This document shows, piece by piece, positions 1,812 to 18,546 of a stretch of 34,136 nt of DNA. Both the position numbers and the translations under genes were made by a program. The DNA is from Candidatus Poribacteria bacterium (GTDB lineage Bacteria > Poribacteria > WGA-4E > PCPOR2b): NCBI GenBank assembly GCA_028819845.1, contig JAPPKS010000008.1, positions 1 to 34,136 of the forward strand, given 5' to 3'. Within the stretch, counting starts at the first letter, position 1; the number at the start of each line of letters is the position of its first letter. The notes under the pieces were generated by a model that ran no database searches, had not been told where the DNA came from, and saw only the letters and a program-made list of their open reading frames with translations.

Positions 1812-1838
1812 CATCGCTCCGTGTCCCCCACTTGCATT

Positions 1839-2879: not shown

Positions 2880-3002
2880 GATTGTGTCTCCTGGGTGATT
2901 GGGGTTGGGTTAAGCGGAGTAAATGAGAGACGCGATAAATGTCGAATGGATATCGGTATTTGAATACGTGTGGTAATTGTTAGAGCGGAGCGAACCCGAC
3001 GT

Positions 3003-3135: not shown

Positions 3136-3223
3136 AAGCGTTGGGTTTCGCTCGATTCATCGGATTTTGGACGTTGGTCGGTTTACCGCAACGAAATGTA
3201 AAATTGTATGTCTATTCGTGTTT

Positions 3224-3506
3224 TCCGCTCTACCCAACCTACGAGAACTACAAGAACTGTAGGTGGCCGGAGGGGCGGGGTTTCCCCGCCCATTGATGAG
3301 CCGCATGCGGCGAATTCCCGACCATACAAAAATTATGTGGGAACAAAGGGTTGGGGAACCCAACCCCTACGAACGACCGGATTTTGAATGTCGTAGGGTT
3401 TCCCAGTATGCCACGTGAAATTGTACGTTAATTGGTGAATTCCGCTCAACCCAACCTACAAGAACTGCTACATTGCGGACGGCACACGGAGTGTGCCTGC
3501 TACTTT
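3224..3506. repeat. 283-bp dispersed intergenic repeat, copy 2
   Basis: Same length and order of internal palindromes as 361-643, differing at only a few per cent of positions over most of its length, which implies recent duplication or homogenisation. It ends about 20 bp before the stop codon of the oxidoreductase gene that follows. Confidence 0.85.
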
Positions 3507-3525
3507 GAGGTGAAGCATTTAGGCG

Positions 3526-4557
3526 TTATTCGTACGTGATTGGCACCGATCTGCCAATCCGAGCCGACTCGTAAATGGCGTCGAAAATTTTGGTGGTGAG
3601 CAGCACCTCTTCCGCCGGGACGGGCGACGGCAATCCTTCGCGGATGGCTTTGTGAAAAGATTCGAATTCGCCGGGTGTGTCGGGGGCGAATTCGGGTTTG
3701 TATTCGACGAGGTGCCCGTCTTTGTCGGTATAGATGCACAATGGGTGGTAGGTTGCGCCTGCCAGGTCGCCCATGAAGAATGTCGTGCCGGTATTTTCGA
3801 TGTGAGCCGCCCAGGCGGATTCCAATGTCACGGTTAACCCGTCTTCGAATCGGATGGTGCCCATAGCGAAATCTTCCACATCGTATTTGGCGCGGTCCCA
3901 ATCGACAGGGTTTACGATATCGTGCCGGTGCCCGAATCTCTGGGCGACCGATCCGAAGACTTCAACCGGCTTGGGGCAGCCGATCATCCACAACAGCACA
4001 TCAAGCTCGTGCACACCGATGTCGATGAGCGGCCCGCCCCCGGAAATGGACTTTACCATGAATGTCGGCGAAAGCCCCATGCCGCGGCGGCGCATGGTGA
4101 CGGCGCGGGCGTAATAGACATGGCCGAAAAGCCCCTCCTCCCACAGTTTGCGCAGGGTTCTGGCGCCTTTGCCGAAACGGGACTGCAGCCCAATCTGCAG
4201 GATTTTGCCCGATGCGCGCGCGGCATTGACCATGGCTTGCCCATCTTCAGCGTTCCCAGCGAGTGGCTTCTCGCAGATTACGTGTTTGCCCGCGTTCAGC
4301 GCGGCGATGGTCGGCGCGGCGTGAAAGTTGTTCGGGGTGCAAACGCTGATTGCGTCAATTTCAGGCATCGCAATCAGTTGATGGTAGTCCGTGAAAACGT
4401 GTTCAATGTCGTAATCATGGGCGCAATACCTCGCCCGCTCTTCGTCTATGTCGCATACTGCGATGACGGAAACGCCTTCGACTTCTCGGTGGCTCACCAG
4501 ATGTTTCGCTTTCCCGATTGCGCCGGCGCCAACGATGCCAACATTAATTTTTTGCAT
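3526..4557 (-). CDS. Gfo/Idh/MocA family oxidoreductase (canonical motifs)
   Basis: A 343-residue predicted NAD(P)-dependent sugar or polyol dehydrogenase, expected in the cytoplasm. Unlike its neighbour at 1839-2879 it has all family hallmarks: the dinucleotide loop GAGAIG at 10-15, CEKPLAG at 95-101 and the substrate-domain motif GGGPLIDIGVHELD at 173-186, where D179, H183 and D186 are the usual active-site positions. ATG at 4557 follows AAGGAGC about 11 nt upstream. It is not closely similar to the other oxidoreductase, so this is not a recent duplication. The 135-bp gap upstream, towards the hydrolase gene, carries two DnaA-box-like 9-mers. Reaction family is certain; the substrate cannot be read from sequence. 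Confidence 0.95.
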   Translation of the reverse strand: MQKINVGIVGAGAIGKAKHLVSHREVEGVSVIAVCDIDEERARYCAHDYDIEHVFTDYHQLIAMPEIDAISVCTPNNFHAAPTIAALNAGKHVICEKPLAGNAEDGQAMVNAARASGKILQIGLQSRFGKGARTLRKLWEEGLFGHVYYARAVTMRRRGMGLSPTFMVKSISGGGPLIDIGVHELDVLLWMIGCPKPVEVFGSVAQRFGHRHDIVNPVDWDRAKYDVEDFAMGTIRFEDGLTVTLESAWAAHIENTGTTFFMGDLAGATYHPLCIYTDKDGHLVEYKPEFAPDTPGEFESFHKAIREGLPSPVPAEEVLLTTKIFDAIYESARIGRSVPITYE

Positions 4558-4612
4558 GGTATTTCTCTGCTCCTTCCGGCTATGGTGCGTCCAGATTGCC
4601 TGTGCAAATCTT

Positions 4613-4632
4613 TGTGGATAATTTGTGGATAA
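4613..4632 (-). promoter_or_regulatory. Two perfect DnaA-box 9-mers, 11 bp apart
   Basis: TGTGGATAA occurs at 4613-4621 and again at 4624-4632, which on the minus strand is the consensus DnaA box TTATCCACA twice, spaced one helical turn start to start. They lie in the spacer between the oxidoreductase and the hydrolase gene. A mirror-image pair lies at 5664-5683. Function (origin, DnaA titration or regulation) is inferred only. Confidence 0.6.
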
Positions 4633-4692
4633 CTCGCCAAGTGTGTATGATTAAAGCCGCGGCGCGTTAATGCCTGTTGCCCCCATTATACC

Positions 4693-5682
4693 TCAAATGT
4701 GCTGAATTGGAATACCGATTTTTCCGACGGATGCGCCGGTGGCGACTATTGGGTAGCCCGGGTGAGACCAGAAGATGCCATTCTCCGGGGCGCGGATAGT
4801 CTCTTGCGGATGGCCGAAGGCGTCGCAAATTTCGGCGATGGGCTGGTATACCTCGACGCAGTCGTATAGGTTGGCTTTATAGTGGACGAATCCGCCGCGG
4901 TTGCTCAAGAGGGTGACGAACCGATCGATGACCACCTGTTGACCGGGGATTTCGGGGTCGCCGTCGATGAACCCGAAATGTTTGAGAACATTGAGCACGC
5001 CGCGCACGCCTTTTTCGATGCTCGCCGGGTTCCATCCGCGGCAGCCGCCGAGTTCGGGATCGATGGTTGGGATACCGACCTCCGGCGCGGCTTGCGCCAG
5101 TTGCCCCTTGGGTCCTTTTTTATCGAAGATGTAGCCGATTCCGAAGGTTCGAGCCAGTGCCAGACAGGCTTCGTGCTGCGGGTGGTTCCGCGATACGCGG
5201 ACGCGGACTTCGTCAATCATTGGGTCGATTCCGCCTTGGTGGAGGTCGATGCAGTAGTCCGATTGTTGGACGAGTCCGTTAAAGAGCCGGTGGGCGATGC
5301 GTTCGCTCGATGTGCCGTCAGATTTGCCGGGGAAGCACCGGTTCATCTTCATCTGATCGACGGGGCTGTGGGCTTGTTGGGCGTGGAATGCGTGGAAATT
5401 GACGATGGGCACGGCGATAATGCGGCCTCGCAGATGCTCTGGGGAAATTTTGCGGATAACCTCGTGGATAACTGCGATACCGTTGAGTTCGTCGCCGTCG
5501 CTTATGGATTGGAGGTAGAGCGTTTTATCCCCGTGTTTTCCGTTGATGAGAACGACGGGAAGCCGCACGGGCGTGCCGTCCGGCAAGGATCCGACTGTGA
5601 TGTAGTCTTCCACGCGTTCTCCCGGTTTAGCGGTGATGGAACCTATGGAGAGGCGGTTATTAGTTATCCACATTTTATCCAC
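4693..5682 (-). CDS. Aspartoacylase/succinylglutamate desuccinylase-like M14-type hydrolase
   Basis: A 329-residue predicted cytoplasmic zinc hydrolase of the AstE/ASPA branch of the M14 carboxypeptidase fold, which removes acyl groups from amino-acid-type substrates. Expected metal and catalytic positions are visible: SDGDELNG at 61-68 aligns with the family HGDExxG motif, so E65 is kept but the first zinc-ligand His is replaced by D62. CIDLHQGG (144-151) supplies H148, and DPELGG (208-213) supplies the probable catalytic E210. The start is GTG at 5682; an in-frame ATG three codons later (5673) is possible, and neither has a strong Shine-Dalgarno. The start codon overlaps a DnaA-box 9-mer. 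Neighbouring oxidoreductases suggest a small-molecule catabolic role. Family likely; substrate unknown. Confidence 0.88.
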   Translation of the reverse strand: MDKMWITNNRLSIGSITAKPGERVEDYITVGSLPDGTPVRLPVVLINGKHGDKTLYLQSISDGDELNGIAVIHEVIRKISPEHLRGRIIAVPIVNFHAFHAQQAHSPVDQMKMNRCFPGKSDGTSSERIAHRLFNGLVQQSDYCIDLHQGGIDPMIDEVRVRVSRNHPQHEACLALARTFGIGYIFDKKGPKGQLAQAAPEVGIPTIDPELGGCRGWNPASIEKGVRGVLNVLKHFGFIDGDPEIPGQQVVIDRFVTLLSNRGGFVHYKANLYDCVEVYQPIAEICDAFGHPQETIRAPENGIFWSHPGYPIVATGASVGKIGIPIQHI

Positions 5683-5683
5683 A
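5664..5683 (+). promoter_or_regulatory. Two perfect DnaA-box 9-mers, 11 bp apart, over a start codon
   Basis: TTATCCACA occurs at 5664-5672 and 5675-5683, with the same 11-bp register as the pair at 4613-4632 but opposite orientation. The second box covers the GTG start at 5680-5682. A T-rich tract follows at 5691-5705. A one-mismatch version, CGTGGATAA, sits at 5464-5472 inside the gene. Confidence 0.6.
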
Positions 5684-5727
5684 ATCGGGTTACATTTTTT
5701 TAGATTTGACGGTGTAAATCAAGCTGC

Positions 5728-5880
5728 CTGGACTGTGATTTATTTGGTTAATTGATGGGCTGTGATTGGGGGGGACATGGTGATTTGGTGTTGAAGTTAC
5801 GTTAAAAAAACCGAGTTTTGAAGAAAAAACTCGGTTTTAAATGGGGGCCGCGATTCGGAGATTGGTCCTACGGGGTAAGG
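5728..5880 (+). repeat. Composite repeat with hairpin copy 2
   Basis: A 50-bp repeat (5728-5775), the segment GACATGGTGATTTGGTG, the 32-nt hairpin (5807-5838) and the 'cgattcggagattggtcctac' module follow one another. The whole block is repeated with few differences at 7402-7553. No gene is present in it. Confidence 0.8.
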
Positions 5881-5917
5881 GATTGCGATTCCCGGCGATG
5901 GATTCAACCACCGCCGT

Positions 5918-6079
5918 TTACTTGCCGCGCTCGCCTTCCTTCCGACTGATGAGCCTGCCAGTTTTTGCATCGCGGCTGCCTCGCTTGCCGCCAACAACCT
6001 TTTCAACAGCCCGTTGAGCTTGTCTTTTTGTGAGTTTGCCGCGTTTGGGCGGGTCTTTAACGGTTCTTTCGCGTCCCAC
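5918..6079 (-). pseudogene. Truncated paralogue of the small RDAxTGR protein
   Basis: On the minus strand a GTG start at 6079, seven bases after AAGGTGA, opens a 53-codon frame. It includes VKDPPKRGKL, QRAVEKVVGG and RDAKTGRLISRKEGER, which align with the intact 83-aa protein at 6233-6484. A block of about 15 residues is missing in the middle. A TAA stop (5918-5920) falls exactly where the paralogue has the GAT codon of KDTAVVET, and beyond it the frame still reads TAVVESI. Homology also continues upstream through the ribosome-binding site. The most economical reading is a decayed tandem copy, though a functional 53-aa product cannot be excluded. Confidence 0.75.
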
Positions 6080-6095
6080 TATTATCACCTTATTG

Positions 6096-6125
6096 AATTA
6101 TGTTTTAAACATCGGTCAGTTGGGC
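6096..6125 (-). pseudogene. Remnant of the 3' end of a TIR-like gene
   Basis: The plus-strand sequence from ATGTTTTAAACATCGG through AGTTGGG matches 6504-6528 at 22 of 25 positions. In the intact unit that segment encodes the last residues (TQPNDD) and stop of the TIR-like protein. It therefore seems to be the end of a second copy of that gene, otherwise deleted, in the correct position ahead of the truncated small gene. Confidence 0.55.
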
Positions 6126-6232
6126 TCAATGGGGGTAAAAAATATCCGTTTGCCGTAGGATGGATTTCGGGGAAGACTAACGCTGTCGCTATGGACTCCG
6201 ATGACCCCGATCCACCCAACCTACAAGGGCTG

Positions 6233-6484
6233 TTATCCTCGTTTATTCGGCCTCGTGATGGTCTCAACCACTGCCGTATCCTTACGGCGTTCGGCTTCCT
6301 GACAACTGATAAACCTGCCCGTTGCTGCGTCGCGACCAACCTTAATGGTCGTTACACCATGGTTCGCCGAAGACTTGCCGCCGCCGTTTTTGCCGTAAAC
6401 GACCTCTCGTACGGCTCGTTTGATTTCGCTTCTTTTGAGCTTACCTTTTTTGGGTGGATACTTGACGATTCTTGGTCTTGCCAC
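6233..6484 (-). CDS. Small basic protein with RDAxTGRFIS motif
   Basis: Recommended start is GTG at 6484, because a consensus AAGGAGGTGA lies at the right distance; an in-frame ATG six codons upstream would place the Shine-Dalgarno inside the gene. The product is 83 residues, highly basic, with VKYPPKKGKLKR and KRAVREVVYGK in the first half and GRDAATGRFISCQEAERR near residues 50-67, then TAVVETITRP. Short proteins with an RDAxTGxF core followed by TTVxE are widespread, but I know of no firm function. It begins 24 bp after the TIR-like gene stop and is almost surely co-transcribed with it. A partner, inhibitor or nucleic-acid-binding role is speculation based on charge and context. Confidence 0.8.
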   Translation of the reverse strand: MARPRIVKYPPKKGKLKRSEIKRAVREVVYGKNGGGKSSANHGVTTIKVGRDAATGRFISCQEAERRKDTAVVETITRPNKRG

Positions 6485-6508
6485 GTAATCACCTCCTTGC
6501 ACAATGTT

Positions 6509-7138
6509 TTAATCATCGTTCGGTTGGGTTGTTAACCATTCTACAATCATGTAAACAAAATCATTATAAATGAGTGCTTCAGCCTCCAACTGAAACTCTT
6601 GGGCAAGTTGAGGTAAATCCGCTTTAAAACCTTGGTAATGTTCCCAAATCTTCCTTCCACCTGGAATTCTCTTACGTCTTGAAGCAGTGGTAAGCCAATT
6701 CCGTACGATGGTTACGATTTCCTCAGCATCGTTGTTATGTGCATGAATGTCTTGCCCTGCAATATCCGAAATAAATGCTTGGTAACGATAGGGTTCTTTA
6801 TCCAATATGAGACAATATTTCCTTTTTTGTACCAGTTGCCCAAATTTTTTTGCACCAAGAAAAACTCCCAATTCCAAAGGCATATTGAATCGAGGAAAAC
6901 CTGAAGCGTTGTCCAATTCCGTTCGCGATATATCATGAATCCCGTACCGGCAATCTTCGATAATGTTATAAATTTTATCAATCCGAACTTCGCTGGCGTC
7001 TACTTCTTCAAGAGCGCAACGGGCAATGAATCCGCAATCGTGCACAGCAAACACCATTGCATCAAACAGAGGTTTATATAGTGAATCAAAGGGGCAGTTG
7101 AGGAAAACACTATCATTATAGTTTTTGGGTAAGCTCAT
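6509..7138 (-). CDS. TIR/deoxyribosyltransferase-like protein
   Basis: A 209-residue soluble protein of a widespread uncharacterised family. Conserved-looking blocks, in order, are FLNCPFD (12-18), DCGFIARCALEE (34-45), SEVRIDKIYNIIEDCRYGIHDISRTE (49-74 region) and RFNMPLELGVFLGAKKFG (83-100). The order of a D-S/R-rich strand end followed by ELGxxLG resembles nucleoside 2-deoxyribosyltransferase and TIR-like folds. On that comparison E89 would be the catalytic glutamate. This is a fold inference from pattern, not a database match. ATG at 7138 has only a weak GAG upstream. A likely promoter lies at 7191-7220, and the small basic gene follows 24 bp downstream. Nucleotide or NAD processing in stress or phage defence is plausible but unproven. 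Confidence 0.8.
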   Translation of the reverse strand: MSLPKNYNDSVFLNCPFDSLYKPLFDAMVFAVHDCGFIARCALEEVDASEVRIDKIYNIIEDCRYGIHDISRTELDNASGFPRFNMPLELGVFLGAKKFGQLVQKRKYCLILDKEPYRYQAFISDIAGQDIHAHNNDAEEIVTIVRNWLTTASRRKRIPGGRKIWEHYQGFKADLPQLAQEFQLEAEALIYNDFVYMIVEWLTTQPNDD

Positions 7139-7190
7139 GATTTGCTCAGTTTATCTGTTAAATCCCTTCGGTCATAAAATTCAGGATAAT

Positions 7191-7220
7191 ATTATGCCAT
7201 ATTTGAAGGACGTATATCAA
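7191..7220 (-). promoter_or_regulatory. Probable sigma-70-type promoter for the TIR-like operon
   Basis: On the minus strand TTGATA (7215-7220) and CATAAT (7191-7196) are separated by 18 bp, giving a leader of about 50 nt before the ATG at 7138. Confidence 0.5.
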
Positions 7221-7255
7221 CGAAAACCAAATGCGAAAAAGCTGGCAATCATGGG

Positions 7256-7286
7256 ATCAACCGGCCGAATAGGGAGGGCGATAGTC
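7256..7286 (+). repeat. Single copy of the MITE arm
   Basis: GATCAACCGGCCGAATAGGG plus AGGGCGATAGTCTT matches the arm of the 64-276 element. No inverted partner is found nearby; a hairpin repeat follows within ten bases. Confidence 0.65.
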
Positions 7287-7294
7287 TTTTATTT

Positions 7295-7326
7295 GAAACC
7301 GAGTTTTTTCTTCAAAACTCGGTTTC
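7295..7326 (-). repeat. 32-nt hairpin repeat, copy 3
   Basis: Perfect 13-bp stem with TTCTTC loop in the minus orientation. Confidence 0.9.
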
Positions 7327-7401
7327 TTTAAGGCTACTTTATCGCGGCTGGAAGCCGCTCCCACAGGGGCGTGATTGTGAATTTCGATGCAAGCCGATCT
7401 A

Positions 7402-7553
7402 CAAGAGTTGTCTGAACTGTGGGTTATTTGGTTAATTGATGGGCTATGATTGGGGGAACATGGTGATTTGGTGTTGAAGTTACGTTAAAAAAACCGAGTT
7501 TTGAAGAAAAAACTCGGTTTTAAATGACTGTCGCGGTTCGGAGATTGGTCCTA
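7402..7553 (+). repeat. Composite repeat with hairpin copy 4
   Basis: Near-duplicate of 5728-5880: the 50-bp repeat, spacer, hairpin at 7490-7521 and the 'cggttcggagattggtcctac' module. Its last bases provide the TAG stop of the methyltransferase gene on the other strand. Confidence 0.85.
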
Positions 7554-8228
7554 CAAGAGCTTACGGGCGACGACGACGGCGATGGGGCCGCGGCGCCAAA
7601 CGCACTCGGCGTCGAATCCGGCGGTGCGGATGGCGTCGAGTTCGGCCTCAAGCGGGAAATAGGTGTCCTCCTCCGCCCATTGCGCGAAATATTCGCGCGC
7701 ACGCGGCTCCTCGATGCCTGAAGCGGCCATGTGATTAATCCAGCTTCGCCACGCCGCGTCGCGTGCCGGGGGTGCGGCTGGCATCGTGGCGTCGGCGTTG
7801 ACGAAGACGCCGCCGGCTCGGAGCGCACCGTAAATCCGCCGGTACAGGCCGCGCTTTTCGCCGATTGACGGAATATGGTGCAGCGCCAACGACGCCACGA
7901 CCGCATCGCAGGGCGGCAACGGCGCATGGAACGACGACTCGGTGAAACGGGTGCGTTCGTCGAACCGTGCGAGCCGCGACCGGGCTTGCGCCAGCATGCC
8001 GCGGTCGATGTCGATGAGTTCCACCGTTCCGGAGGCGTCCGCCGAAAGGATCGCCTCGGACAGGGCACCGGTGCCCCCGCCGAGGTCGAGCGTCAAGTCC
8101 GGTTTTGTGCGGACAATTTCGCGCGCGGCAACGGCGAGCATGGTCTCGTAGCCCGGAATGAAGCGGCGAATCTTTTCGTCGTAAGTGCGGATTTCAATGC
8201 CGAGGTGGCGGTGTACGGAGTGGTTCAT
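7551..8228 (-). CDS. Class I SAM-dependent methyltransferase
   Basis: A 225-residue Rossmann-fold methyltransferase when started at ATG 8228; an upstream in-frame ATG at 8297 would add 23 residues without family character and cross the promoter of the divergent gene. Motif I is LDLGGGTG (47-54), the acidic residue ending strand 2 is in LIDIDRG (71-77), and motif IV reads CDAVVASLALHHIP (107-120). This order is typical of the Methyltransf_25/11 type, and the length is normal for a small-molecule methyltransferase. The substrate cannot be told. The last codons lie against the composite repeat, whose sequence contributes the TAG stop, so the C-terminus may have been altered by repeat insertion. 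It is divergent from the coiled-coil gene at 8347. Confidence 0.9.
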   Translation of the reverse strand: MNHSVHRHLGIEIRTYDEKIRRFIPGYETMLAVAAREIVRTKPDLTLDLGGGTGALSEAILSADASGTVELIDIDRGMLAQARSRLARFDERTRFTESSFHAPLPPCDAVVASLALHHIPSIGEKRGLYRRIYGALRAGGVFVNADATMPAAPPARDAAWRSWINHMAASGIEEPRAREYFAQWAEEDTYFPLEAELDAIRTAGFDAECVWRRGPIAVVVARKLL

Positions 8229-8262
8229 GGGTGATTGACGGTTGTGAGGTCTTGGATTTGAG

Positions 8263-8292
8263 TTGACATTGTACCAAATGCAGTGGTATAAT
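8263..8292 (+). promoter_or_regulatory. Strong sigma-70-type promoter with extended -10
   Basis: TTGACA (8263-8268), an 18-bp spacer and TATAAT (8287-8292), with TG one base before the -10. It points at the coiled-coil gene at 8347, giving a leader of about 47 nt. Confidence 0.8.
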
Positions 8293-8346
8293 CGCAACCA
8301 TAAGGCTAGTTGCGGAAGGGCCGCTTTTGGATTTGAGGAGTGACAA

Positions 8347-8838
8347 ATGGAAGTTTTTGCCAGCTACATTCCCGTCGTTCTTATCGTGTTAGCCATTATT
8401 GCCGGTTATTGGCGGACGACCATGCAATATGGAGATTTGGGGATTAAGTATGGAAATATAATGGCGAATATGGCGACTAAAGAAGACATTCGGAATCTGA
8501 ATAATATAGTGGCGAATATGGCGACTAAAGAAGACATTCGGAATCTGAATAATATAGTGGCGAATATGGCGACTAAAGAAGAACTTCGGGACATAAAAGA
8601 AGACATTCGGGAGATAAAAGAGGAATTCAGGTACATGAGAGATGAAATCAAGGACATGAGAAATGACATCAGGGCGCTTGACGACCGAATGAATCGTTTT
8701 GAAATGCACGTGACTCAACAGTTCGCCGAGATTAAGGGAGAAATCAGCGATTTGAAACGGGATGTCAATACGCTTCAACAATCGTATGTGAATCACCTGA
8801 TTACAGAGCATAACATTAAACCCGCGCAGCCGGGTTAA
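8347..8838 (+). CDS. Membrane-anchored coiled-coil protein with duplicated 16-aa unit
   Basis: A 163-residue protein with an N-terminal hydrophobic segment (about 5-21) and then a long, charged coiled coil up to residue 150. Residues 37-84 are three copies of a 16-residue unit built around NIVANMATKEDIRNL. The first two copies are encoded by a 48-bp direct repeat (8455-8502, 8503-8550) that differs by about one base, and the third copy diverges. GAGGAG six bases before ATG 8347 and the promoter at 8263-8292 support the start. A rho-independent terminator follows at 8876-8902, so it is a one-gene transcript. It shares its plan with genes at 9132-9371 and 32878-33909. Function is unknown; DUF1640-like or bactofilin-type comparisons would be guesses. 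Confidence 0.8.
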   Translation: MEVFASYIPVVLIVLAIIAGYWRTTMQYGDLGIKYGNIMANMATKEDIRNLNNIVANMATKEDIRNLNNIVANMATKEELRDIKEDIREIKEEFRYMRDEIKDMRNDIRALDDRMNRFEMHVTQQFAEIKGEISDLKRDVNTLQQSYVNHLITEHNIKPAQPG

Positions 8839-8875
8839 TCAGCTTGTGCAAGAAATGACCTGTATCGCACCGCCA

Positions 8876-8902
8876 GCCGTTGGTATATGCCAGCGGCTTT
8901 TT
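8876..8902 (+). terminator. Rho-independent terminator
   Basis: Stem GCCGTTGG / CCAGCGGC with one G-U pair, a 6-nt loop and five T residues, 38 bp after the stop of the coiled-coil gene. Confidence 0.8.
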
Positions 8903-8935
8903 ATGTGGAATGGGATTGACTGAGCGAATGCATTT

Positions 8936-8967
8936 GAAACCGAGTTTTTTCTTCAAAACTCGGTTTC
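8936..8967 (-). repeat. 32-nt hairpin repeat, copy 5
   Basis: Perfect stem, TTCTTC loop; followed at 8979-9035 by the 'gcctgctactttatcgcggctggaag' module seen in the 1-875 region. Confidence 0.9.
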
Positions 8968-9131
8968 TTCAACGCGACGGTTGTACACCGGAGAATGCCT
9001 GCTACTTTATCGCGGCTGGAAGCCGCGGCTACAGGTGGTGGGTAATGGGCACGCATAACGGTTTGATCATCGGAGGTATGTGCAGGGAACTGCTCCTTAT
9101 GCGAGAATAAAGCGTCATAAAAGAGACATGG

Positions 9132-9371
9132 CTATTTGGTAACGTGTATGTTGGTGTTTGTGATGTGTTCGATGAGAATGCGGTTGGCCTCTTTGAGGTT
9201 AGCATTGGTTTCATCAACTTTGTTCGCCAGTGTATCGTGTTCTCGCGACATTTGAGAACGCAAATCATCAATGCGTTTGTTGGTTATGTTAGTCGCCCAC
9301 AGTACCACGGCAACAATGACAGCTGGCGGCAACAAAGTTAATGATAGTAAAGCTACAAGTGGTGTTTCCAA
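9132..9371 (-). CDS. Small membrane-anchored coiled-coil protein
   Basis: The start is placed at TTG 9371 because AAAGGAGA lies eight bases upstream of it and a clear promoter lies at 9395-9423. The longer frame from ATG 9410 would begin before the expected transcription start. The 79-residue product has a hydrophobic segment (about 5-26, LVALLSLTLLPPAVIVAVVL) followed by a short coiled coil with RIDDLRSQMS and a C-terminal IEHITNTNIH. The same architecture and a similar C-terminal 'xxHIxNxxIH' signature occur in the 343-aa protein at 32878-33909 (DHINDPEIH). Role unknown; membrane tethering or oligomerisation is all that can be inferred. Confidence 0.72.
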   Translation of the reverse strand: METPLVALLSLTLLPPAVIVAVVLWATNITNKRIDDLRSQMSREHDTLANKVDETNANLKEANRILIEHITNTNIHVTK

Positions 9372-9394
9372 GAGTATATCTCCTTTCGGATAAA

Positions 9395-9423
9395 AGTATA
9401 CTTTAGGCAAGATTTTATGTCAA
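9395..9423 (-). promoter_or_regulatory. Sigma-70-type promoter
   Basis: On the minus strand TTGACA (9418-9423), 17-bp spacer, TATACT (9395-9400), aimed at the TTG-started small gene. Confidence 0.75.
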
Positions 9424-9479
9424 GGTGGGATGCCCTCGACGAGTTTTTGTAGGTTGCGATCGACTGACCGAATTCATTT

Positions 9480-9512
9480 GAAACCGAGTTTTTTTCTTCA
9501 AAACTCGGTTTC
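9480..9512 (-). repeat. Hairpin repeat, copy 6, left border of terminase module
   Basis: Same stem with one extra T in the loop side. With its flanks (TTT before, TTTAACGCAA after) it forms a 45-bp near-identical direct repeat with 12085-12129 on the other side of the terminase genes. Confidence 0.85.
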
Positions 9513-9577
9513 TTTAACGCAACCCCACCTACAATCCCGTCAATACAGCGAATATCCTTCGGTTTTTACGTTTTCAC

Positions 9578-9606
9578 TTGACACTTGTTACTATATATGC
9601 CATAAT
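9578..9606 (+). promoter_or_regulatory. Sigma-70-type promoter, leaderless transcript likely
   Basis: TTGACA (9578-9583), 17-bp spacer, CATAAT (9601-9606). The ATG of the next gene is at 9616, so the expected transcript start falls within a few bases of the start codon; no Shine-Dalgarno is present. Confidence 0.65.
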
Positions 9607-9615
9607 TTTACCATC

Positions 9616-10119
9616 ATGCTAAAGCAAGAATTATGCTTTAGCGAATCGGACATTGACTTCACAATCGATCTCTTCGCGCACTACGGCGGCGGCAAAGCCA
9701 ACGCCAATCGCGTCATTGAGCTTTTGTGTGAGTACTTTGGGATAGCGGACAACGCAAGTAACCATAAACTGTTGTCAAACAAAATCCGCACCTTTAATCC
9801 CAACAGAAAGGATTGCGCAGAGCAGCACCGCAAGCGTTATCGAATGCAACGCAATCACAATCTCATTAACAGGCATCAACCCGACGGAATCTATTCGCGG
9901 CATAAACAGAGAATCTATTACCGCGCCGTTGACGTGTTGTATGAAGAGATGACGCCGTCGCTCGCGCTCAAGGTCATTGAAGCCGAAAACCGATTCGCTA
10001 TCGAAAACAAAAACTTAAACTTACAAGAAAGGATCGAACGCGCATGTTTAGCTGACGATACGGGAGATAGTTCTTTCCGTCATGGCGAAACGCAGCCAGA
10101 TTTACAGCAACCACAGTAG
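9616..10119 (+). CDS. Possible small terminase subunit or terminase-linked protein
   Basis: A 167-residue basic protein not recognised from sequence alone. Visible features are an N-terminal helical segment with FAHYGGGKANANRVIELLCEYF, an Arg/His-rich middle (residues 70-105) fit for nucleic-acid binding, and a helical C-terminal part. ATG 9616 is chosen because the promoter lies directly before it; the longer open frame upstream reads through a hairpin repeat. Its 3' end overlaps the large-terminase start by 38 bp, the classic position of a small terminase (TerS) gene. That role is inferred from position only. An HNH or transcription-factor function cannot be excluded. Confidence 0.65.
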   Translation: MLKQELCFSESDIDFTIDLFAHYGGGKANANRVIELLCEYFGIADNASNHKLLSNKIRTFNPNRKDCAEQHRKRYRMQRNHNLINRHQPDGIYSRHKQRIYYRAVDVLYEEMTPSLALKVIEAENRFAIENKNLNLQERIERACLADDTGDSSFRHGETQPDLQQPQ

Positions 10120-11899
10120 GTTTCTGAAAATCTATCGCGCAAATCATAATGCCCGCGCACTGCACGCCGTCGAGAGAACAGAAGAGGAACAAGACATCTA
10201 TCTCCGCGGTTTTGATGATGTCTTAGTCTTTGCCAAGACCCATTTCCCGGACGTATTCACGGTGAAATGCGGTCCGCACGCGTCTCCTATCCTAAACTGC
10301 ATTCCCGCCGGTGACCGCGGAAGGCGTGCCAATATCATTGCGCCCAGAGGATGCGGCAAAAGCACTTACATCGCCGTCATCTACGTACTCCACTGTGTCT
10401 ACTACAAAGAGGAATACGAGCGCCGCGGATTAATGCCCGATAGCTTCATTCTAATCGTGAGCGGCACTGAAGAACTTGCCACTGACCGCCTGCGCGACAT
10501 CCGTATCAAAATCGAAGACCATCCCCCCTTCCGCCACTTAAAAGGTCAAGCCAACTGGAGCGCTGACCTCCTCGAAACCGCAAACGGCGTTCGCATCTTG
10601 CCCGTCGGCAGGCGCGGCAGAATCCGCGGCCAACTCAAAGACCTTGCCCGCCCCACCCTCATTATCCTCGACGATGTAGAAAACGGTGAGGAAATCCAAA
10701 ACCCCAAAATCCGCGATAAAAACTGGAAATGGTTCAACGAGGATGTTATGCCTGCAGGTCGTATCGACGGCAAGACAAACTTCATCCACATCGACACCGT
10801 AAAACACGAAGAAGCCATATCCAAACGCCTGCAACTCCTTCCAGACTGGTACACCAAATTCTACCGTGCTATTGAGAATCCCGTAGAACTGCGCCACCCC
10901 GCCGCCGAGCCGTTGTGGGAAGCGTGGGAAAAAATCTATACGGACATGACGCTCGAAAAAGACGAGCGCGACCGCCGGGCGCACGCATTTCTTGAGACAC
11001 ACAAGGGTGAAATGCTGGACGGCGTGCAAGAACTCTGGCCGGAAATGCTCTCCTACCTACAAATCCGCCGTCTTATCTGCAATGAAGGATATATCTCCGT
11101 CATGCGCGAGCGCCAAAACTCGATGCGCGACCCCTCGAAAGAAATTTTCAACATGGAGAGCGCCATTCGCTTCAAAATCACGCCCGACGGTATATTGAGA
11201 AGCGACGGACGCATAGTCCACTGGAGCGATATCGCCGGCGCCACAGTTTTCCTCGATTGGGCGGGCGGCAAGGACGCTTACGATTCCTGCTTTGCCGCCG
11301 CCGTGTTCGTCTTGTGGGTGCCGCTGCCCCACGCGAATATGAAACGCCGCCGCGACCCGCTCACCGCCCTCGCTAACGCCCACGCCTACGTGCTTGATGT
11401 CTGGATGGACAAAGTGCCTGTCACGGCCCAATTAGAAGAGACATTTAAACTCATTAAGCGGTGCGTCAGTGCGGTGCCGCATATTCGTTTCGATTCCATC
11501 TTGCTCGCAGTCGAGGACATCCCGAAAGACACCGGCAACGCGATGCACGACATGATTAATCGGGCGTTCGAGGTTGCGCGGAAAGAGTACCAGATGACCT
11601 CGCTCGTCCGCATGCAGTACCACCGGCGAAGCACGCGCAAGTTAGACCGTATCGCCGCCTTGGAACCGCCTATCACCAACGGCTGGATTGCTTTCAACGA
11701 GACGCTATCCGAGGAGTTTATGCGCCAGATGCGGCAATTCCCCACCGGCGACTTCTGCGACGGCCCCGACGCCCTGCAAGGCGCAGCCGAGTTGCCCATT
11801 ACCCGTTTCCCCGCCGAACGGCTTCCGAACGGAATGCTGGAAGACTCGGAAGACGATGAATCCGACCCGATGATGAATGTTGTAAGGAGCTATTTATGA
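10082..11899 (+). CDS. Phage-type terminase large subunit
   Basis: A 605-residue DNA-packaging motor protein: an ATPase that drives viral DNA into a prohead, plus an RNase-H-like nuclease that cuts it. The Walker A motif is APRGCGKST (87-95) and Walker B is LIILDDVE (193-200). The C-terminal nuclease has candidate acidic residues in LDWAGGKDAYD (D392, D398, D401), AVEDIPKD (E478, D479) and FCDGPDALQGA (D560, D563), in the order expected for the family. The length is normal and no frameshift is seen. Translation seems coupled to the preceding gene. No portal, capsid, protease or tail gene is nearby, so this is an orphan, and hairpin repeats bracket the module. It may be a phage or gene-transfer-agent remnant, or a domesticated enzyme. 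Confidence 0.88.
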   Translation: MAKRSQIYSNHSRFLKIYRANHNARALHAVERTEEEQDIYLRGFDDVLVFAKTHFPDVFTVKCGPHASPILNCIPAGDRGRRANIIAPRGCGKSTYIAVIYVLHCVYYKEEYERRGLMPDSFILIVSGTEELATDRLRDIRIKIEDHPPFRHLKGQANWSADLLETANGVRILPVGRRGRIRGQLKDLARPTLIILDDVENGEEIQNPKIRDKNWKWFNEDVMPAGRIDGKTNFIHIDTVKHEEAISKRLQLLPDWYTKFYRAIENPVELRHPAAEPLWEAWEKIYTDMTLEKDERDRRAHAFLETHKGEMLDGVQELWPEMLSYLQIRRLICNEGYISVMRERQNSMRDPSKEIFNMESAIRFKITPDGILRSDGRIVHWSDIAGATVFLDWAGGKDAYDSCFAAAVFVLWVPLPHANMKRRRDPLTALANAHAYVLDVWMDKVPVTAQLEETFKLIKRCVSAVPHIRFDSILLAVEDIPKDTGNAMHDMINRAFEVARKEYQMTSLVRMQYHRRSTRKLDRIAALEPPITNGWIAFNETLSEEFMRQMRQFPTGDFCDGPDALQGAAELPITRFPAERLPNGMLEDSEDDESDPMMNVVRSYL

Positions 11900-12156
11900 T
11901 GACTGAGATAACTGAATCCAATAACCCGAAAAAGGCATCAAAAACGAGCATTCTCAACTTATTTTTTCAAATGCTCACAAATGCTCAACCCCGCAACCCC
12001 GCTCCCTGTCTAGCTTTGTGCCCATTTTCGCTTATTTTCGCATATTCCAAATGCTCACAGAATGCTCAAATCAAAAATCTCAATTTTGAAACCGAGTTTT
12101 TTCTTCAAAACTCGGTTTCTTTAACGCAAGTTTCCCCCTTTTTTTATGGACTGTAA
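11896..12156 (+). pseudogene. Stump of a third terminase-operon gene
   Basis: ATG 11896 overlaps the terminase stop codon (ATGA) and has AAGGAG seven bases upstream, which is strong evidence that a real gene once started here. After about 15 plausible residues (MMTEITESNNPKKAS) the frame becomes low-quality. It passes through short direct repeats around AAATGCTCA (11969-12070) and reads straight through a hairpin repeat copy (12088-12119) before stopping at 12156. The likeliest history is that the next phage gene, perhaps portal, was cut off by rearrangement at the repeat. Confidence 0.6.
12088..12119 (-). repeat. 32-nt hairpin repeat, copy 7, right border of terminase module
   Basis: Perfect stem with TTCTTC loop, in the same orientation as the copy at 9480-9512 and with the same flanking TTTAACGCAA. 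Confidence 0.9.
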
Positions 12157-12242
12157 AAACTGTAATTTTGATTGAAAATTGTGCGATTGAATGTCGCGCT
12201 GTTGATATTTGGCTTTTGTCGCCTGATTGCTTCACGTGCGTC

Positions 12243-12483
12243 TCGTAGGGGCGGGGTTCCCCCGCCCATTGAGCAGCCGGAGGCGGCGAATTCCCGACCA
12301 TACCAATATGATGTGTGAACAAAGGGTTGGGAAACCCAACCCCTACGAATTATCGAATATTGGATGTCGCTAGGTTTTCTAGCGCGCCGCGTGAAATTTT
12401 ACGTCATTTGGTGCAGACCGCTCAACCCAACCTACAAGAGTTGGTACTTTGCGGACGGCACACGGAGTGTGCCTGCTACTTTT
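12243..12483. repeat. 283-bp family repeat, partial copy 3
   Basis: Corresponds to 404-643 of copy 1 with more differences than copy 2, so it is an older member. It keeps the GGGGCGGGG...CCCCGCCC, GTTGGG...CCCAAC and GGCACAC-GGA-GTGTGCC palindromes. Confidence 0.8.
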
Positions 12484-12490
12484 CGTTATG

Positions 12491-12732
12491 AAGAAACCGA
12501 GTTTTGAAGAAAAAACTCGGTTTCTAGCGGCTAAAAACTCGGTTTCAAGCAGCCAAAAAGAGAATTTTTGAAACCGGGTTTTGGGGGGAGGCGTATATTT
12601 GCGTACAGTGTCAGGTTTAGGATGGAAGTGTCGATTTTTGGTGGGTTATCGAAGAAACCGAGTTTTGAAGAAAAAACTCGGTTTCAAGCGGCCAAAAACT
12701 TGGTTTCTAGCAGTCAAAAATCGGTTTTTGGT
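12491..12732 (+). repeat. Doubled hairpin block (hairpin copies 8 and 9)
   Basis: Two hairpins (12493-12524, 12654-12685) are each followed by a tail in which a half-stem (AAAAACTCGGTTTC or close) and AGCAG-CAAAAA recur. The block of about 68 bp at 12491-12558 is thus repeated at 12652-12720. It lies directly upstream of the promoters of the large surface gene. Confidence 0.8.
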
Positions 12733-13127: not shown

Positions 13128-13266
13128 GATTCTGTTTTATGGTTTATTTGGAAAGGACGACTAACCGATTATGGATAGTTCAACTAGGGCTTGCGAATCC
13201 AGCAAGCGAAACAGACTAAAATTTAATTCTTCAACATACAAACAAGCAAGGAGGAAACATAAAGTC

Positions 13267-16200
13267 ATGTTGAGTAGAATTTCGAAAATGAGTGTACTCG
13301 GTATCGTTGCGCTCATGCTTGTGCTCGGTCTGACGGCGGACGATGCGTTCGCGCAGGCGGCGGGTACGTATGGCGTGGCCGTGACATCGAGTCCGGACCA
13401 CGCTACCGATCCCAGTGAACTACGCGCAGCGGGCACTGCAACGTCGATAACGTTTACCCTCACGGTTGCTGAACGGCAGGATAAAGGAACGCAGGATTCG
13501 CCCGATCCTCCGGCGTCTACAGCGGCGCGCGAAGTCACGATTACCATTCCGCACGAGTGGACGACTCGACCGATTGAGGACAACGGCGACACAGATCCTC
13601 CCGCGGATGCAGGCGAGGTGACGTTTAGCGACGGCACAAACACCGGCAGAACTGTCGGCTACGTTTCGGGCCGAAACCTGAAGATTAAGATTCCGGAAGG
13701 CGCCGCCGGTAACGGCACATACACCGTCGTTTACTACAACGCAACCATACCGCACCGCAAAGGCGACTACAGATTTCCAATCACCAATGCTGATGTCAGC
13801 TTTGTGCAGGTTTCGGTATATTATGTGGCGAACGGTTCGGGTAAGGTGACCTTTACGTCATCTGTTGCCAAGCAGGGCGAGCTCAAGGAAGGCGATGTCA
13901 ATCACGCTTATAACAACCAGTATGTTGCGGTCAGCGAGCAGCCGTTAAACAACGCCGTTTTTAGGTTTGAAGCATTGGGATCCATGCCAAAGGATTCGCA
14001 GGTGAGAGTCACGATGGCTGGTGACGCATTTATGCTCGGGAATCGTCCCAACGACGACAGCACCGCGTCGGTGAGCGGCGCCGGCAGTCCGGAGCTTGCC
14101 CGGGCGGCGGATACCGTGACCGCTACCATCAAAGCGGATGGCGGGATCGAGAAGGGCAGTTCGATTACCATAACCATAAAGGGTCTGAAGGCACCTGAGG
14201 TCGCTGTGGCTGCGGCGCCAAATACCGCTCATTCGTTTACAGTCGCATCGGGAGTTTTTGCGGATCCGGTTGTATTTGCAGATGTCGCAGACGCCGCATT
14301 TCCTTTCACTACGACCGGCCCATCGGGGCGCGGTACACTAGCCATGGCGACCACCGGCGATCCTGCCGACGACCCGCCTAGTATCGCGGACGTTGCGAAT
14401 CAAGCCGTGCAGGAAGGCACTAACCTCAAGACGTTGGCATTTACCATTGCCGGAGATGATTCTCTTGGCGCAGGCGCCAGTTATGAAATTAAGCTTCCGA
14501 GCGCTTTCCCGGCGCCGACGATGGCAATTGCGCCCATCGGCGGCACTGTTGATGTAAACGTTGTCGGACACACGAATGCGGCAAAGCATGACGGCGGCGC
14601 ACGGACACTAAGTGGCCCGCTTCGGGCTTGGGCCGTTCAGACGACCAATTCGCTTACGGCGGCAGTAGAATACCGAGCCGGTCCGATTTCGACGCAGGGC
14701 AGGCACGTCTTCGGGTTCAAAACCAGCACGGGGCCGCACGGCGGATTGATGGATGTCGGCGGCGACGGTTATCCGCGGTACATTGATGTCACGGCGAAGC
14801 ACGACAGCGGTACGTTTGTGGTTAAGGAGAATGGCCAGCCGTTGGTTCGGACTACAGCCGAGGCACAGCACGACGTTCTCGAATTGGTCTTCACCGCCGC
14901 CGGTTATATGCCTAAAGGCGTGGTCGTTTTTGCAGTTCCGACTAATGCGGACACGGATCCGGTACTGTCGCCGGCGCTGCCTTGGCCGCGTCCCCGTAAC
15001 GACAACGGCGACAGCACCCCCGATGTGGGCGAGGTGACGTTTAGCGGCAAAGCCGACTTTGTCATTAACGCCGACGGCACCATTACCGCGACAGGGAACG
15101 CGGCTTGGAACATGAACGACGAGATTAAGGTGACATACAAGAACGTCAAAGTTCCGAAGGGGCCGGATAGCGCCCCTAACCAGCCTTTCGCATTTACTGC
15201 AATGTCACGGTCCTTTGGCACTGGTGATACTGAAAATTTGCACACAAAGATGCATAAAATCGGCGCCGGGCGCACGGCGGACGGCAGCGGAACGTTGGCG
15301 GTTGCGCCGGACAGCGCGAACTCCAACACGACGATCGACGTGAAATTGACTTTCACATCGCAAGGCGACATGCCTGTCGGGTCGGCTGTCGAGGTAACCA
15401 TCCCTGACGGATTTCCCGATCTGACCGGAAATGTGGCAATCGGACAAGAGGGCGTTGCGGCGACCTTGACATCAACGGCGAGGACCATGACCGCCACGGT
15501 TGCGAACACATTGGGCAATAACGGCACACTTGTGTTCGATATCACCGGCGTAGTTACGCCTGCGTCGGGCGGGCCTTACGAGTACACTGCGAAGTCGAAA
15601 GCTCAGCCGAGCGGCACGCTGACGGCGCTTTCGAGCGGAGCTGCTAGGATTACCATTAACCAGGTGACGGCTGGAACGGTGATGTTGTCCACCACCTCTG
15701 CAGAGCCAGGTACGTTCATTGATGATAACCTGACGATTACCTTCACCGCAGGCGCGCAGATGCAGTCCGGTTCGAAGGTTACGGTCGAGATTCCGGAGGC
15801 GTTTACATCGGTGCGCCCGGACAACAACGACGGTATTGATGATGCGGGTGAGGTCTTGCTCACGGGTTCCGCTGACCTTGGAGTCTCTGGCGGCGGGACG
15901 ACGCCGTGGGTGCTAACCGCGACGGTGAATGCTGTCATAGAATCCGGCGGAACGCTGGTTATCACCTACAAAGACGTGACCGTACCGATGGCGGAAGCTG
16001 TGTATACGTTCACCACGATGGCGTCTGTTACCGCGGATCAGGGGCTGCTGCCAGTTTCAGTTCAGCCGACCCTGACTGTCAGGAAGTCTGTCACCGCTAT
16101 CGCGATGGTTTCCGATCCCGATCCGGCAACGGTGTTCACTGGCGAGTCCATTACGCTCACTGTGTCGCTTATGGCTGGAACCGAAGCGGGCAAGGCGTTG

Positions 16201-18546
16201 GGCGACCAGGTTGTGATGCTGTCCGACGGAGACGCGGGCGGTACGTTCATGCCCGCCTCAATCACGATTGCGGATAACACGGGTGAAGGATCCGCCACCT
16301 ATACGAACAGCACGGCTAGTAATCCTACGTATACGTTGACCGCTACATTAGGCGACTTGGATGCGGTTACCGTCGAAGCTACGATTAAGTCGAAGATTCG
16401 CGATCTGACGGTTAACGGCAAGAAAGCGGATATCGTTGTCGCAGCCGGTCAAATGCTCACCGTGAGCGCAATCGGTCAAGCCGGTACGGGTACCGTGACT
16501 ATCAAGGATGCCGACGGCAATAAGGTCGGGCTGACGCGCGCGCTAGATCCGATTGGCGAAGTCGATCCCGACGGCGACCAGCAGTTCCAGCGAGACGTGA
16601 TGCTGCCGGATTCCACTGTCGACGGCGAATACACGGTCAACGTTATGATTAACGACCAACCCGGCACGATTTCGATTACGGTGCTGAACGACCAGTCACC
16701 GCCGACGTTGAGCAACGCCAGTGTGCTGTCCAACACCGATACGATTATGAACGGCAGCGTGCTGACGCTTAGCGTGGACGTTGTCGCGGCAAGCGAGAGC
16801 AATCCGATTGACGACGACACAGTGATGGCGGATCTCAGCGAGGTTGACTCAACGCGCACGGAAATGCTTCCGTTGGGGAAACAGGCTGGAACCGACAACA
16901 CATATATCGCTGTTTACACCATCAGCATGGACAACGAAAGTGCGGATGGCGAAAAGACGGTCACGTTCTCGGCGCAAGCCATGATTGGCGACGCCAGCAC
17001 GGCGACTGCGATGGTCAACTTGGAGAACGATCCGAGCACGCTTGACAGCGTAATGGTACCGGACGATACGTTCAGACCGGGCGATATGGTCACGATTACC
17101 GCGATGGGTACGGCGGGGCAGATGGTGAAATTCACCGTAACGTCCTCCGACGGCACGGCGATGCCTGACGGCAAAGCCATGACGGAAGGACCGGACGGAA
17201 CGTATACCGGAACCTTCGACGTCGTGGGTGATGTCCATACCGAAGGCATGTACGACGTGACGGTCACCATGAACGACAATCCGGCGAAGTCGATGACTAT
17301 GGCAGGTTCGCTGGACATTGGTCCTGCGGGCTACATGTTCACCTTGTCGATTCCGGCGGGTACGCACGCCATACATATCCCGTTGGCGGTTAACATGATT
17401 AACGGCGAAGACGGCATGATTGAGACGGTCGGCGATGTCTACGACGCGCTCGGCGATGCGGTCAACTTCATCATCACGCTCGGCGCTGACGGAAGCTGGA
17501 TGAGCTACCTCGGCGACGATAGTGCGGGCAGCATGGCGGACGCGGCTATCGGCGACGATTCGGGTCTGATTGTTGTGATGAAGAGCGCTGCGACGTTAGA
17601 GTTGGTCGGTGACGCGTTAGGCACCGGCGGCGTTTCCATGGTTAGCATTGAAGCCGGGAACAACCTCGTCGGTGTACCGCTTGATCCGGCGGTCGACATG
17701 ATGATTAGTGACGCACTGGTCGAAGGCGTGCAGGCAATCGCGGTATCCAACGCTGCAGGCGACGGATTCCATAGGATTACGGCAGCCGGCGACATGGGCG
17801 ACGGTCCTATTGAAGGCGGCGTGGGTTACATCGTTGTGGCTACGGCGTCGGCGAGCATTCCGGTCATCGGTTCCGCATGGGAGAACGAAGGCGCCGCGGC
17901 AGCACCCGCAGTGGTGTTCAGCGGTTCGCAGACACCGGTTCTCCATGTTGACGGCGGCGTTATGGATGAGTTCGACATGTTGGCACAGGTTCCCGAACTT
18001 CGTGTCACTGTGAAGAACCTGTCTACCGGCGCTTCGCTGGATACGGTTCTCGGATCGGAAGCATCGTACAGCGCGACGTTTGTTGAGTTCGGACGCCATG
18101 CCGCCAAGGCTGGCGATGTGCTGGAAATCGTAGCGCATTCACCGAACCCGTACGTCGGTGTACGTCCGGTACCGCAGATAGTCGTTAGCGCGGAAGAGGT
18201 GTTGACGAGCCGTATCAGTCTGCCCGACTTGGAACTCTATGAGATTCCGTCGGAGACCGAGCTGTTGGCTAACTACCCGAATCCGTTTAACCCTGAAACG
18301 TGGATTCCGTACCGGTTAGCGAAAGCTGCCGAAGTGACGTTGAGTATCTATGACACCAACGGCGCCTTGGTACGGTCCATAGATGTCGGCTTCAAACCAG
18401 CGGCTGTGTACGAATCACGTGCATCGGCGATTTACTGGGATGGTCGCAACAACTACGGTGAACGCGTTGCCAGTGGCACGTACTTCTACCACTTGACGGC
18501 GGGCGAAGATTATGCATCGACGCGCCGGATGGTGATTCTGAAGTAA
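13267..18546 (+). CDS. Large secreted repeat protein with T9SS/FlgD-like C-terminal tail
   Basis: The start at 13267 follows AAGGAGG at 12 bases; the open frame begins 32 codons earlier without signal. The 1759-residue product has a Sec signal peptide (hydrophobic 9-21, cleavage probably after AFA at 29). Six divergent units of about 150 residues follow, each with an 'MPxGSxVxVxIPxxF' signature near residues 90, 245, 403, 548, 702 and 832. An invasin-type Ig domain (about 940-1042), further Ig-like segments to 1348, and a domain (about 1354-1538) with GTHAIHIPLAVN and GNNLVGVPLD of a kind I associate with Poribacteria come next. The end (1666-1759) holds NYPNPFNPETWIPY and WDGRNNYGERVASGTYFYHL, a type-A T9SS sorting/FlgD-like tail. 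A cell-surface adhesin-like role is inferred. A perfect terminator follows. Confidence 0.88.
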   Translation: MLSRISKMSVLGIVALMLVLGLTADDAFAQAAGTYGVAVTSSPDHATDPSELRAAGTATSITFTLTVAERQDKGTQDSPDPPASTAAREVTITIPHEWTTRPIEDNGDTDPPADAGEVTFSDGTNTGRTVGYVSGRNLKIKIPEGAAGNGTYTVVYYNATIPHRKGDYRFPITNADVSFVQVSVYYVANGSGKVTFTSSVAKQGELKEGDVNHAYNNQYVAVSEQPLNNAVFRFEALGSMPKDSQVRVTMAGDAFMLGNRPNDDSTASVSGAGSPELARAADTVTATIKADGGIEKGSSITITIKGLKAPEVAVAAAPNTAHSFTVASGVFADPVVFADVADAAFPFTTTGPSGRGTLAMATTGDPADDPPSIADVANQAVQEGTNLKTLAFTIAGDDSLGAGASYEIKLPSAFPAPTMAIAPIGGTVDVNVVGHTNAAKHDGGARTLSGPLRAWAVQTTNSLTAAVEYRAGPISTQGRHVFGFKTSTGPHGGLMDVGGDGYPRYIDVTAKHDSGTFVVKENGQPLVRTTAEAQHDVLELVFTAAGYMPKGVVVFAVPTNADTDPVLSPALPWPRPRNDNGDSTPDVGEVTFSGKADFVINADGTITATGNAAWNMNDEIKVTYKNVKVPKGPDSAPNQPFAFTAMSRSFGTGDTENLHTKMHKIGAGRTADGSGTLAVAPDSANSNTTIDVKLTFTSQGDMPVGSAVEVTIPDGFPDLTGNVAIGQEGVAATLTSTARTMTATVANTLGNNGTLVFDITGVVTPASGGPYEYTAKSKAQPSGTLTALSSGAARITINQVTAGTVMLSTTSAEPGTFIDDNLTITFTAGAQMQSGSKVTVEIPEAFTSVRPDNNDGIDDAGEVLLTGSADLGVSGGGTTPWVLTATVNAVIESGGTLVITYKDVTVPMAEAVYTFTTMASVTADQGLLPVSVQPTLTVRKSVTAIAMVSDPDPATVFTGESITLTVSLMAGTEAGKALGDQVVMLSDGDAGGTFMPASITIADNTGEGSATYTNSTASNPTYTLTATLGDLDAVTVEATIKSKIRDLTVNGKKADIVVAAGQMLTVSAIGQAGTGTVTIKDADGNKVGLTRALDPIGEVDPDGDQQFQRDVMLPDSTVDGEYTVNVMINDQPGTISITVLNDQSPPTLSNASVLSNTDTIMNGSVLTLSVDVVAASESNPIDDDTVMADLSEVDSTRTEMLPLGKQAGTDNTYIAVYTISMDNESADGEKTVTFSAQAMIGDASTATAMVNLENDPSTLDSVMVPDDTFRPGDMVTITAMGTAGQMVKFTVTSSDGTAMPDGKAMTEGPDGTYTGTFDVVGDVHTEGMYDVTVTMNDNPAKSMTMAGSLDIGPAGYMFTLSIPAGTHAIHIPLAVNMINGEDGMIETVGDVYDALGDAVNFIITLGADGSWMSYLGDDSAGSMADAAIGDDSGLIVVMKSAATLELVGDALGTGGVSMVSIEAGNNLVGVPLDPAVDMMISDALVEGVQAIAVSNAAGDGFHRITAAGDMGDGPIEGGVGYIVVATASASIPVIGSAWENEGAAAAPAVVFSGSQTPVLHVDGGVMDEFDMLAQVPELRVTVKNLSTGASLDTVLGSEASYSATFVEFGRHAAKAGDVLEIVAHSPNPYVGVRPVPQIVVSAEEVLTSRISLPDLELYEIPSETELLANYPNPFNPETWIPYRLAKAAEVTLSIYDTNGALVRSIDVGFKPAAVYESRASAIYWDGRNNYGERVASGTYFYHLTAGEDYASTRRMVILK

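Follow-up and report, generated by a model that had tools for sequence, protein, structure and literature searches.

Why should a bacterial chromosome carry an intact phage DNA-packaging enzyme with no capsid genes beside it? The window analysed here, a stretch of 34,136 nucleotides from the genome of a sponge-associated bacterium of the Candidatus Poribacteria, holds a large terminase subunit gene (terL) directly preceded by a candidate small subunit gene (terS), and no portal, coat or tail genes anywhere in its 34 kb. Terminases are a standard phage marker gene, and lone terminases would inflate prophage counts; the locus also allows one to ask, in a form open to testing, whether selection can act on packaging specificity by itself as an element. 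Our analysis favours, at a probability of roughly 0.4, a phage-derived TerS-TerL module that has been uncoupled from capsid genes and is still kept; in the manner of a satellite or of a split gene-transfer agent, it would most probably work in trans on capsids made elsewhere.

An intact terminase pair among host genes

The window TerL matched the PHROG family phrog_38, 'terminase large subunit', with an E-value of 2.2e-56, and in tblastn it aligned over as much as 94% of its length with phage terminases, at an identity of about 25%, while its NCBIfam terminase matches were weak and fell below the cut-off. The nearest described phage TerLs, those of Paenibacillus phages Unity and Heath and of the Mu-like Burkholderia phage KS10, are only about 25% identical. 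A single-sequence scan of IMG/VR found no close viral relatives, and an alignment scan of the same collection returned distant relatives only, at 23-37%. The AlphaFold2 model of the protein has a mean pLDDT of 84.7, and in Foldseek it matched solved terminases across both domains (PhiV-1 TerL at E 1e-15, T4 gp17, HK97 and D6E), together with entries for the nuclease domain only, from herpesvirus and G20c terminases; a sequence search of solved structures with the TerL profile gave no match, though the fold search did. The GC3 of terL is 0.67, like that of its neighbours (0.65-0.76 for most). The original prediction of a complete large terminase with Walker and nuclease motifs is borne out by the family match, by motifs that are invariant across 21 aligned sequences (Table 1) and by the fold matches. 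Judged from sequence and model, the window terminase is real and intact, with both catalytic domains present, and it is predicted to be active in packaging.

Table 1. Features of the terminase locus, in window coordinates
Feature	Position	Strand	Basis
terS candidate, 167 aa from ATG 9616	9616..10119	+	overlaps TerL start; homologous to relatives' TerS
Sigma-70-like promoter TTGACA-17 nt-TG.CATAAT, directly 5' of terS	9578..9606	+	consensus match only
terL, large terminase subunit, 605 aa, ATPase and RNase-H-like nuclease	10082..11899	+	phrog_38; Foldseek; invariant motifs
Walker A APRGCGKST	10340..10366	+	A87, P88, R89, G90 and K93 invariant, 21-sequence alignment
Walker B LIILDD	10658..10675	+	D197 and D198 invariant, 21-sequence alignment
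Nuclease motif FLDWAGG (D392)	11249..11269	+	D392 and G396 invariant, 21-sequence alignment
Nuclease acidic residue E478	11513..11515	+	invariant, 21-sequence alignment
Nuclease motif DGPDA (D560, D563)	11759..11773	+	D560, P562, D563 and A564 invariant, 21 sequences
Left bracketing copy of the dispersed hairpin, not counted as part of module	9480..9512		one of 61 genome copies
Right bracketing copy of the dispersed hairpin, not counted as part of module	12088..12119		one of 61 genome copies

The possible small subunit proposed at the outset also held up, with a corrected start. Its reading frame overlaps that of TerL, and its product is homologous to the TerS proteins of relatives, matching that of locus L018 at E 5e-6 (blastp) and having in common with the relatives a near-invariant R..NP motif (N61 P62). 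The promoter-like sequence agrees with the consensus at 11 of 12 positions, has a TG ahead of the second hexamer and ends 9 nt 5' of the ATG; because of it, terS most likely begins there and not at 9430, from where a longer open reading frame, an unlikely start, would read through a hairpin. No family matched the window TerS in searches that included PHROG and NCBIfam, and its model is all-alpha, with no PDB match in the fold search.

The original prediction that the 34 kb hold no capsid, portal or tail genes was likewise correct, and the neighbours are host genes. Pfam matches identified a transporter permease, GFO/IDH dehydrogenases, an AstE/AspA-type hydrolase, a methyltransferase, a LysM protein and a CDP-alcohol transferase, and further open reading frames encode coiled-coil proteins and a pair of giant secreted proteins with repetitive sequence. 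We found no integrase among the window's open reading frames, no tRNA in the window and no recognisable attachment sites. Satellite-type integrase, regulator and replication genes were also absent, the module consisting of TerS and TerL only; there was no match to known defence families, and Rfam gave nothing at gathering score on the terminase cassettes. Searches with tblastn and 25 phage structural queries revealed no structural phage genes or debris beside the window terminase or any other lone (orphan) copy. Across the whole window genome, profile searches for the portal and the coat of the related phage family detected neither, and capsid genes diverged beyond those profiles would escape detection; PF04860, the sole generic portal family searched besides the related ones, was not found there either. 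As an aside on the neighbourhood, the giant secreted proteins (13171-18546 and 19214-28591; 1791 and 3125 aa) have similar C-terminal ends (NYPNPF...) that resemble sorting domains, and a coiled-coil open reading frame at 8347-8838 contains three 48-bp tandem repeats at 8455-8598.

Bracketing hairpins, empty sites and selection

Direct repeats at 9477-9522 (46 nt) and 12085-12129 (45 nt), identical save for one extra T, lie on either side of the pair, and the original prediction took this 45-bp bracket as a sign that the terminase had been gained between repeats. The repeated sequence is real, and its left copy folds into a hairpin at -16.8 kcal/mol (z -6.2), but the bracket is no evidence of a unit: the hairpin belongs to a dispersed family of 61 copies in the genome, nine of them in the window (at 789, 5808, 7296, 7491, 8937, 9481, 12089, 12494 and 12655). 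By extended similarity, the two bracketing copies come only fifth among the 36 pairs that can be formed in the window, and the copy at 9481 is nearer in sequence to that at 8937, on the same side of the terminase, which leaves repeat-mediated gain unsupported. A role for the two hairpins in bringing in the terminase, as its ends or as sites of recombination, strikes us as far-fetched, despite the 45/46-nt match between the two sides and despite a 21-mer, AACTCGGTTTCTTTAACGCAA, that occurs exactly in the genome only at the two bracketing sites (near-copies with one or two mismatches lie at 11 others); the other orphan terminases lack a common bracketing pair of this hairpin, and the one empty site that we could align, described below, shows neither repeat nor target duplication. 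We rejected hairpin-mediated insertion since the bracketing pair is an ordinary one within a dispersed family. The occurrence of the hairpin family on the window contig and on many other contigs of the assembly argues against a misplaced contig. The nine GAAACCGAGTTTT hairpin copies of the window are densely clustered, at 789-12685.

The empty site involves two related stretches of one assembly, L018 (G027:C32) and L240 (G027:C24), whose flanks are 79-91% identical. L018 contains a 3.9-kb piece, made up of TerS-TerL and two genes upstream of it, that L240 lacks, and there is no target duplication. We thus saw no transposon-type ends, as there was no target-site duplication here and no common ends among the genus-g5 copies, whose DNA conservation covers promoter, leader, terS and terL only. 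The flank genes of three other orphans (L022, L023 and L026) occur without a terminase in sister species, in a rearranged context; the comparison of L023 with G009 was discarded as a clean empty site, the flanks lying on two contigs with a terminase in neither, which amounts to rearrangement. No empty site could be aligned for the window copy or for its paralogue on contig C30 in genomes of the same family, synteny downstream of pth being broken in G001-G008.

Purifying selection on TerL, which had been proposed as a check, is evident among L022, L023 and L026, where dN/dS is 0.12-0.18. Their dS of 0.75-0.77 compares with 0.66-0.98 for host genes between both species, and because dS is close to host-gene divergence we consider these three copies old. 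Differential loss of old copies and later movement are alternatives that both fit the three loci, and the low dN/dS of orphans may come partly from an earlier life in phages.

Lone terminases and capsid clusters across the phylum

A census of 84 genomes of the phylum, all of them MAGs, established that the same two genes do recur in relatives: nine genomes carry the TerL family, as 14 near-complete open copies plus fragments. All 14 main copies are open and motif-intact, and 11 of them are lone TerS-TerL pairs amid host genes, at differing sites. The window genome itself has a second lone pair, on contig C30 beside degP, with a TerL that is 43% identical. In our tree, all 14 rows of poribacterial TerLs fall into a single clade (support 100/100) separate from Clostridia prophages and viral contigs, and orphans occur in every sub-lineage. 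The three remaining copies (L016, L017 and L025) lie near phage structural genes; L016 and L017 have a portal match to phrog_156 at E 3e-13, and the L025 terminase is about 8 kb from a coat-portal-scaffold cluster. The capsid and portal genes beside these three copies show that the family came from phages. Such genes at the window's own site in relatives, which the original prediction had named as the mark of an ordinary prophage remnant, were not found, and no relative has a terminase there.

Portal and coat genes are distributed quite differently. Profiles for each returned five near-complete copies, and all 10 sit in multi-gene clusters, so that 11/14 TerL copies are unlinked versus 0/10 for portal and coat (Fisher p 1.5e-4), a comparison in which portal and coat copies of one cluster are not independent and which gives p = 0.005 against the five portals alone. 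Four terminase carriers (G022, G033, G073 and G079) have no related portal or coat detectable by profile searches. Decay was seen in G009:C36, a degraded cluster with portal fragments and a TerL fragment, and as one TerL fragment in G079.

The orphan cassettes show some structure of their own. An extra gene of about 155 aa, of no known family, lies directly 5' of terS in L018 (7728-8201) and L020 (502-957), the two versions being 39% identical; as these cassettes belong to two genera, their common gene implies that the orphan form has been inherited or transferred as a unit in its own right. The genus-g5 copies (L022:4760-4975, L023, L025, L026 and L021), as well as L015 and L019, have a promoter, a leader of 100-250 nt and a conserved hairpin of the intrinsic-terminator type before terS. 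In five sequences, 5 of the 22 pairs of the leader hairpin show double compensatory change, and an attenuator or small RNA is possible; we rejected a leader RNA as a general part of the module, since it is absent from the window copy. TerS differs strongly between L025 (7895-8488) and L026 (8089-8658) though their TerLs are 76% identical, and the leader 5' of TerS is 87% identical over 77 nt, an apparent swap of the DNA-recognition subunit.

Phage-like clusters were found at G027:C24, G038:C2, G012:C123, G009:C32, G007:C172 and G083:C194. They have a P22-like order of portal, scaffold, coat and connector, and a TerL of the window clade is present in three; the window lacks those structural genes, and several of the clusters lack an adjacent terminase. 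One coat-connector-portal-scaffold cluster occupies the same place in two species of genus g5 (G012:C123:104454-115441, L243 and L025; G009:C32:90575-102144, L252), within more than 50 kb of common host gene order; the G009 contig ends 5 kb past the cluster, and an adjacent terminase there could lie beyond. Identity between the two genomes is about 70-93% for host genes, 96% for the coat and 88% for the portal, and the dS of the cluster, 0.46-0.86 against 0.66-0.98 for host genes, is host-like. Host-like dS together with the common gene order suggests that the cluster has been present since the species split. Vertical inheritance with the host is a gene-transfer-agent-like trait by published criteria (PMC9662315), and on these sequence comparisons we regard the genus-g5 cluster as a gene-transfer-agent candidate; our literature search brought up no gene-transfer agent in the phylum Poribacteria. 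Glycosyltransferase and nucleotide-sugar genes recur next to poribacterial capsid clusters in several genera (L241, L239, L243 and L261).

A terminase without a capsid

What, then, keeps these pairs in the chromosome? The original prediction offered a phage or gene-transfer-agent remnant or a domesticated packaging enzyme. The orphan module stands, and it may be domesticated, but the plain prophage remnant is disfavoured, although any one copy taken singly may be such a remnant. That explanation holds that each lone TerS-TerL is the residue of a prophage whose other genes are gone, and it gains from the phage derivation of the family, from the existence of structural-gene clusters, one of them degraded (G009:C36), and from the TerL fragment in G079. 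We nevertheless think it unlikely on balance, because decay does not readily account for a bias that affects terminases only (11/14 versus 0/10), for 14 main copies that are all open and motif-intact, for the lack of structural debris next to any orphan, or for the retention every time of an identical two-gene set with its own promoter or leader. A split gene-transfer agent, in which the genome has a domesticated capsid cluster that the terminase serves from a different locus, would explain intact terminases elsewhere in genomes whose capsid cluster sits at one common site with host-like dS (G009/G012), and GTA genomes are often spread across several loci (PMC9662315). RcGTA and BhGTA are indeed built from phage-derived chromosomal genes over several loci, as in Poribacteria. 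The genus-g5 capsid cluster resembles them in its apparently vertical inheritance. The terminases do not, since they occur in several copies, are sporadic and lie at sites that relatives do not share, as would not be expected of a GTA part handed down vertically; moreover, profile searches detected a related portal or coat neither in the window genome nor in G022, G033, G073 or G079. The missing capsid argues against a split agent in the window genome and leaves foreign shells or some other use, and we consider this explanation improbable.

Reuse by the host for something other than packaging, such as DNA processing or defence by interference with phage packaging, seems to us likewise improbable and, if anything, more so. 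An enzyme that is intact in a genome with no related capsid, a TerS that diversifies fast beside a conserved TerL, and the extra genes of some orphans (L018, L020) are what one might expect of it. However, known defence families gave no match, the full packaging ATPase and nuclease have been retained, and the distribution is sporadic (9/84 genomes).

We therefore return to a maintained module that would package in trans. The pair has in common with tailed-phage packaging modules the TerS-TerL order, both TerL domains and the catalytic motifs, and differs from tailed phages in having no portal, coat or tail genes nearby. We suggest that it originated as the packaging module of a poribacterial tailed phage and is now a chromosomal transcription unit of its own, without capsid genes. 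TerS would still pick the DNA start site, perhaps within or beside terS, as in headful phages, and TerL would cut there and pump the DNA into procapsids that a co-resident phage, or a GTA-like capsid cluster elsewhere in the population, provides in trans. The pair could in this way move itself plus flanking host DNA, for which lateral transduction is an analogy (PMC12829572), and would enter new cells by homologous recombination. Entry by homologous recombination would need no integrase and leave no fixed ends, which matches what we observe. The intact genes, the promoter-like sequence, recurrence at different sites, the terminase-only bias, the lack of debris, purifying selection among related orphans and the one empty site all speak for a module that has been uncoupled and kept, as do the lone modules outside Poribacteria described below. 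The related capsid clusters in the phylum could supply shells; against packaging in trans we count that no pac site was found for the module. Since the window genome has no related capsid, any shell used there would be either one made by a phage of another cell or one too far diverged for our searches to recognise. If trans action is real, the pair would amount to a minimal means of mobilising the host chromosome.

A more specific possibility, which we hold to be rather unlikely, is that the module is a capsid-less packaging parasite of two genes and a presumed pac site, which would spread in foreign phage or GTA shells, having neither an integrase nor fixed ends. It would resemble PICI/SaPI phage satellites and lateral transduction in redirecting packaging with a terminase part of its own and in moving flanking host DNA; it would differ from those satellites in lacking integrase, replication and capsid-remodelling genes and in carrying TerL besides TerS. 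No kind of satellite yet described would be as small as such a parasite, and counterparts of it would exist outside Poribacteria.

Our literature search found no paper on lone or domesticated terminases, and among genome matches in the tree the nearest relatives of the poribacterial TerL clade are also lone terminase modules, in an unclassified bacterium (L051:7839-11554) and in a member of the Vampirovibrionales (L052:6169-9965), with no portal or coat within the 20 kb examined. Unlike the window pair, both carry a DNA-methyltransferase-like (adenine-methylase-like) gene and a ParB-like gene before TerS-TerL, and short integrase-like open reading frames lie nearby.
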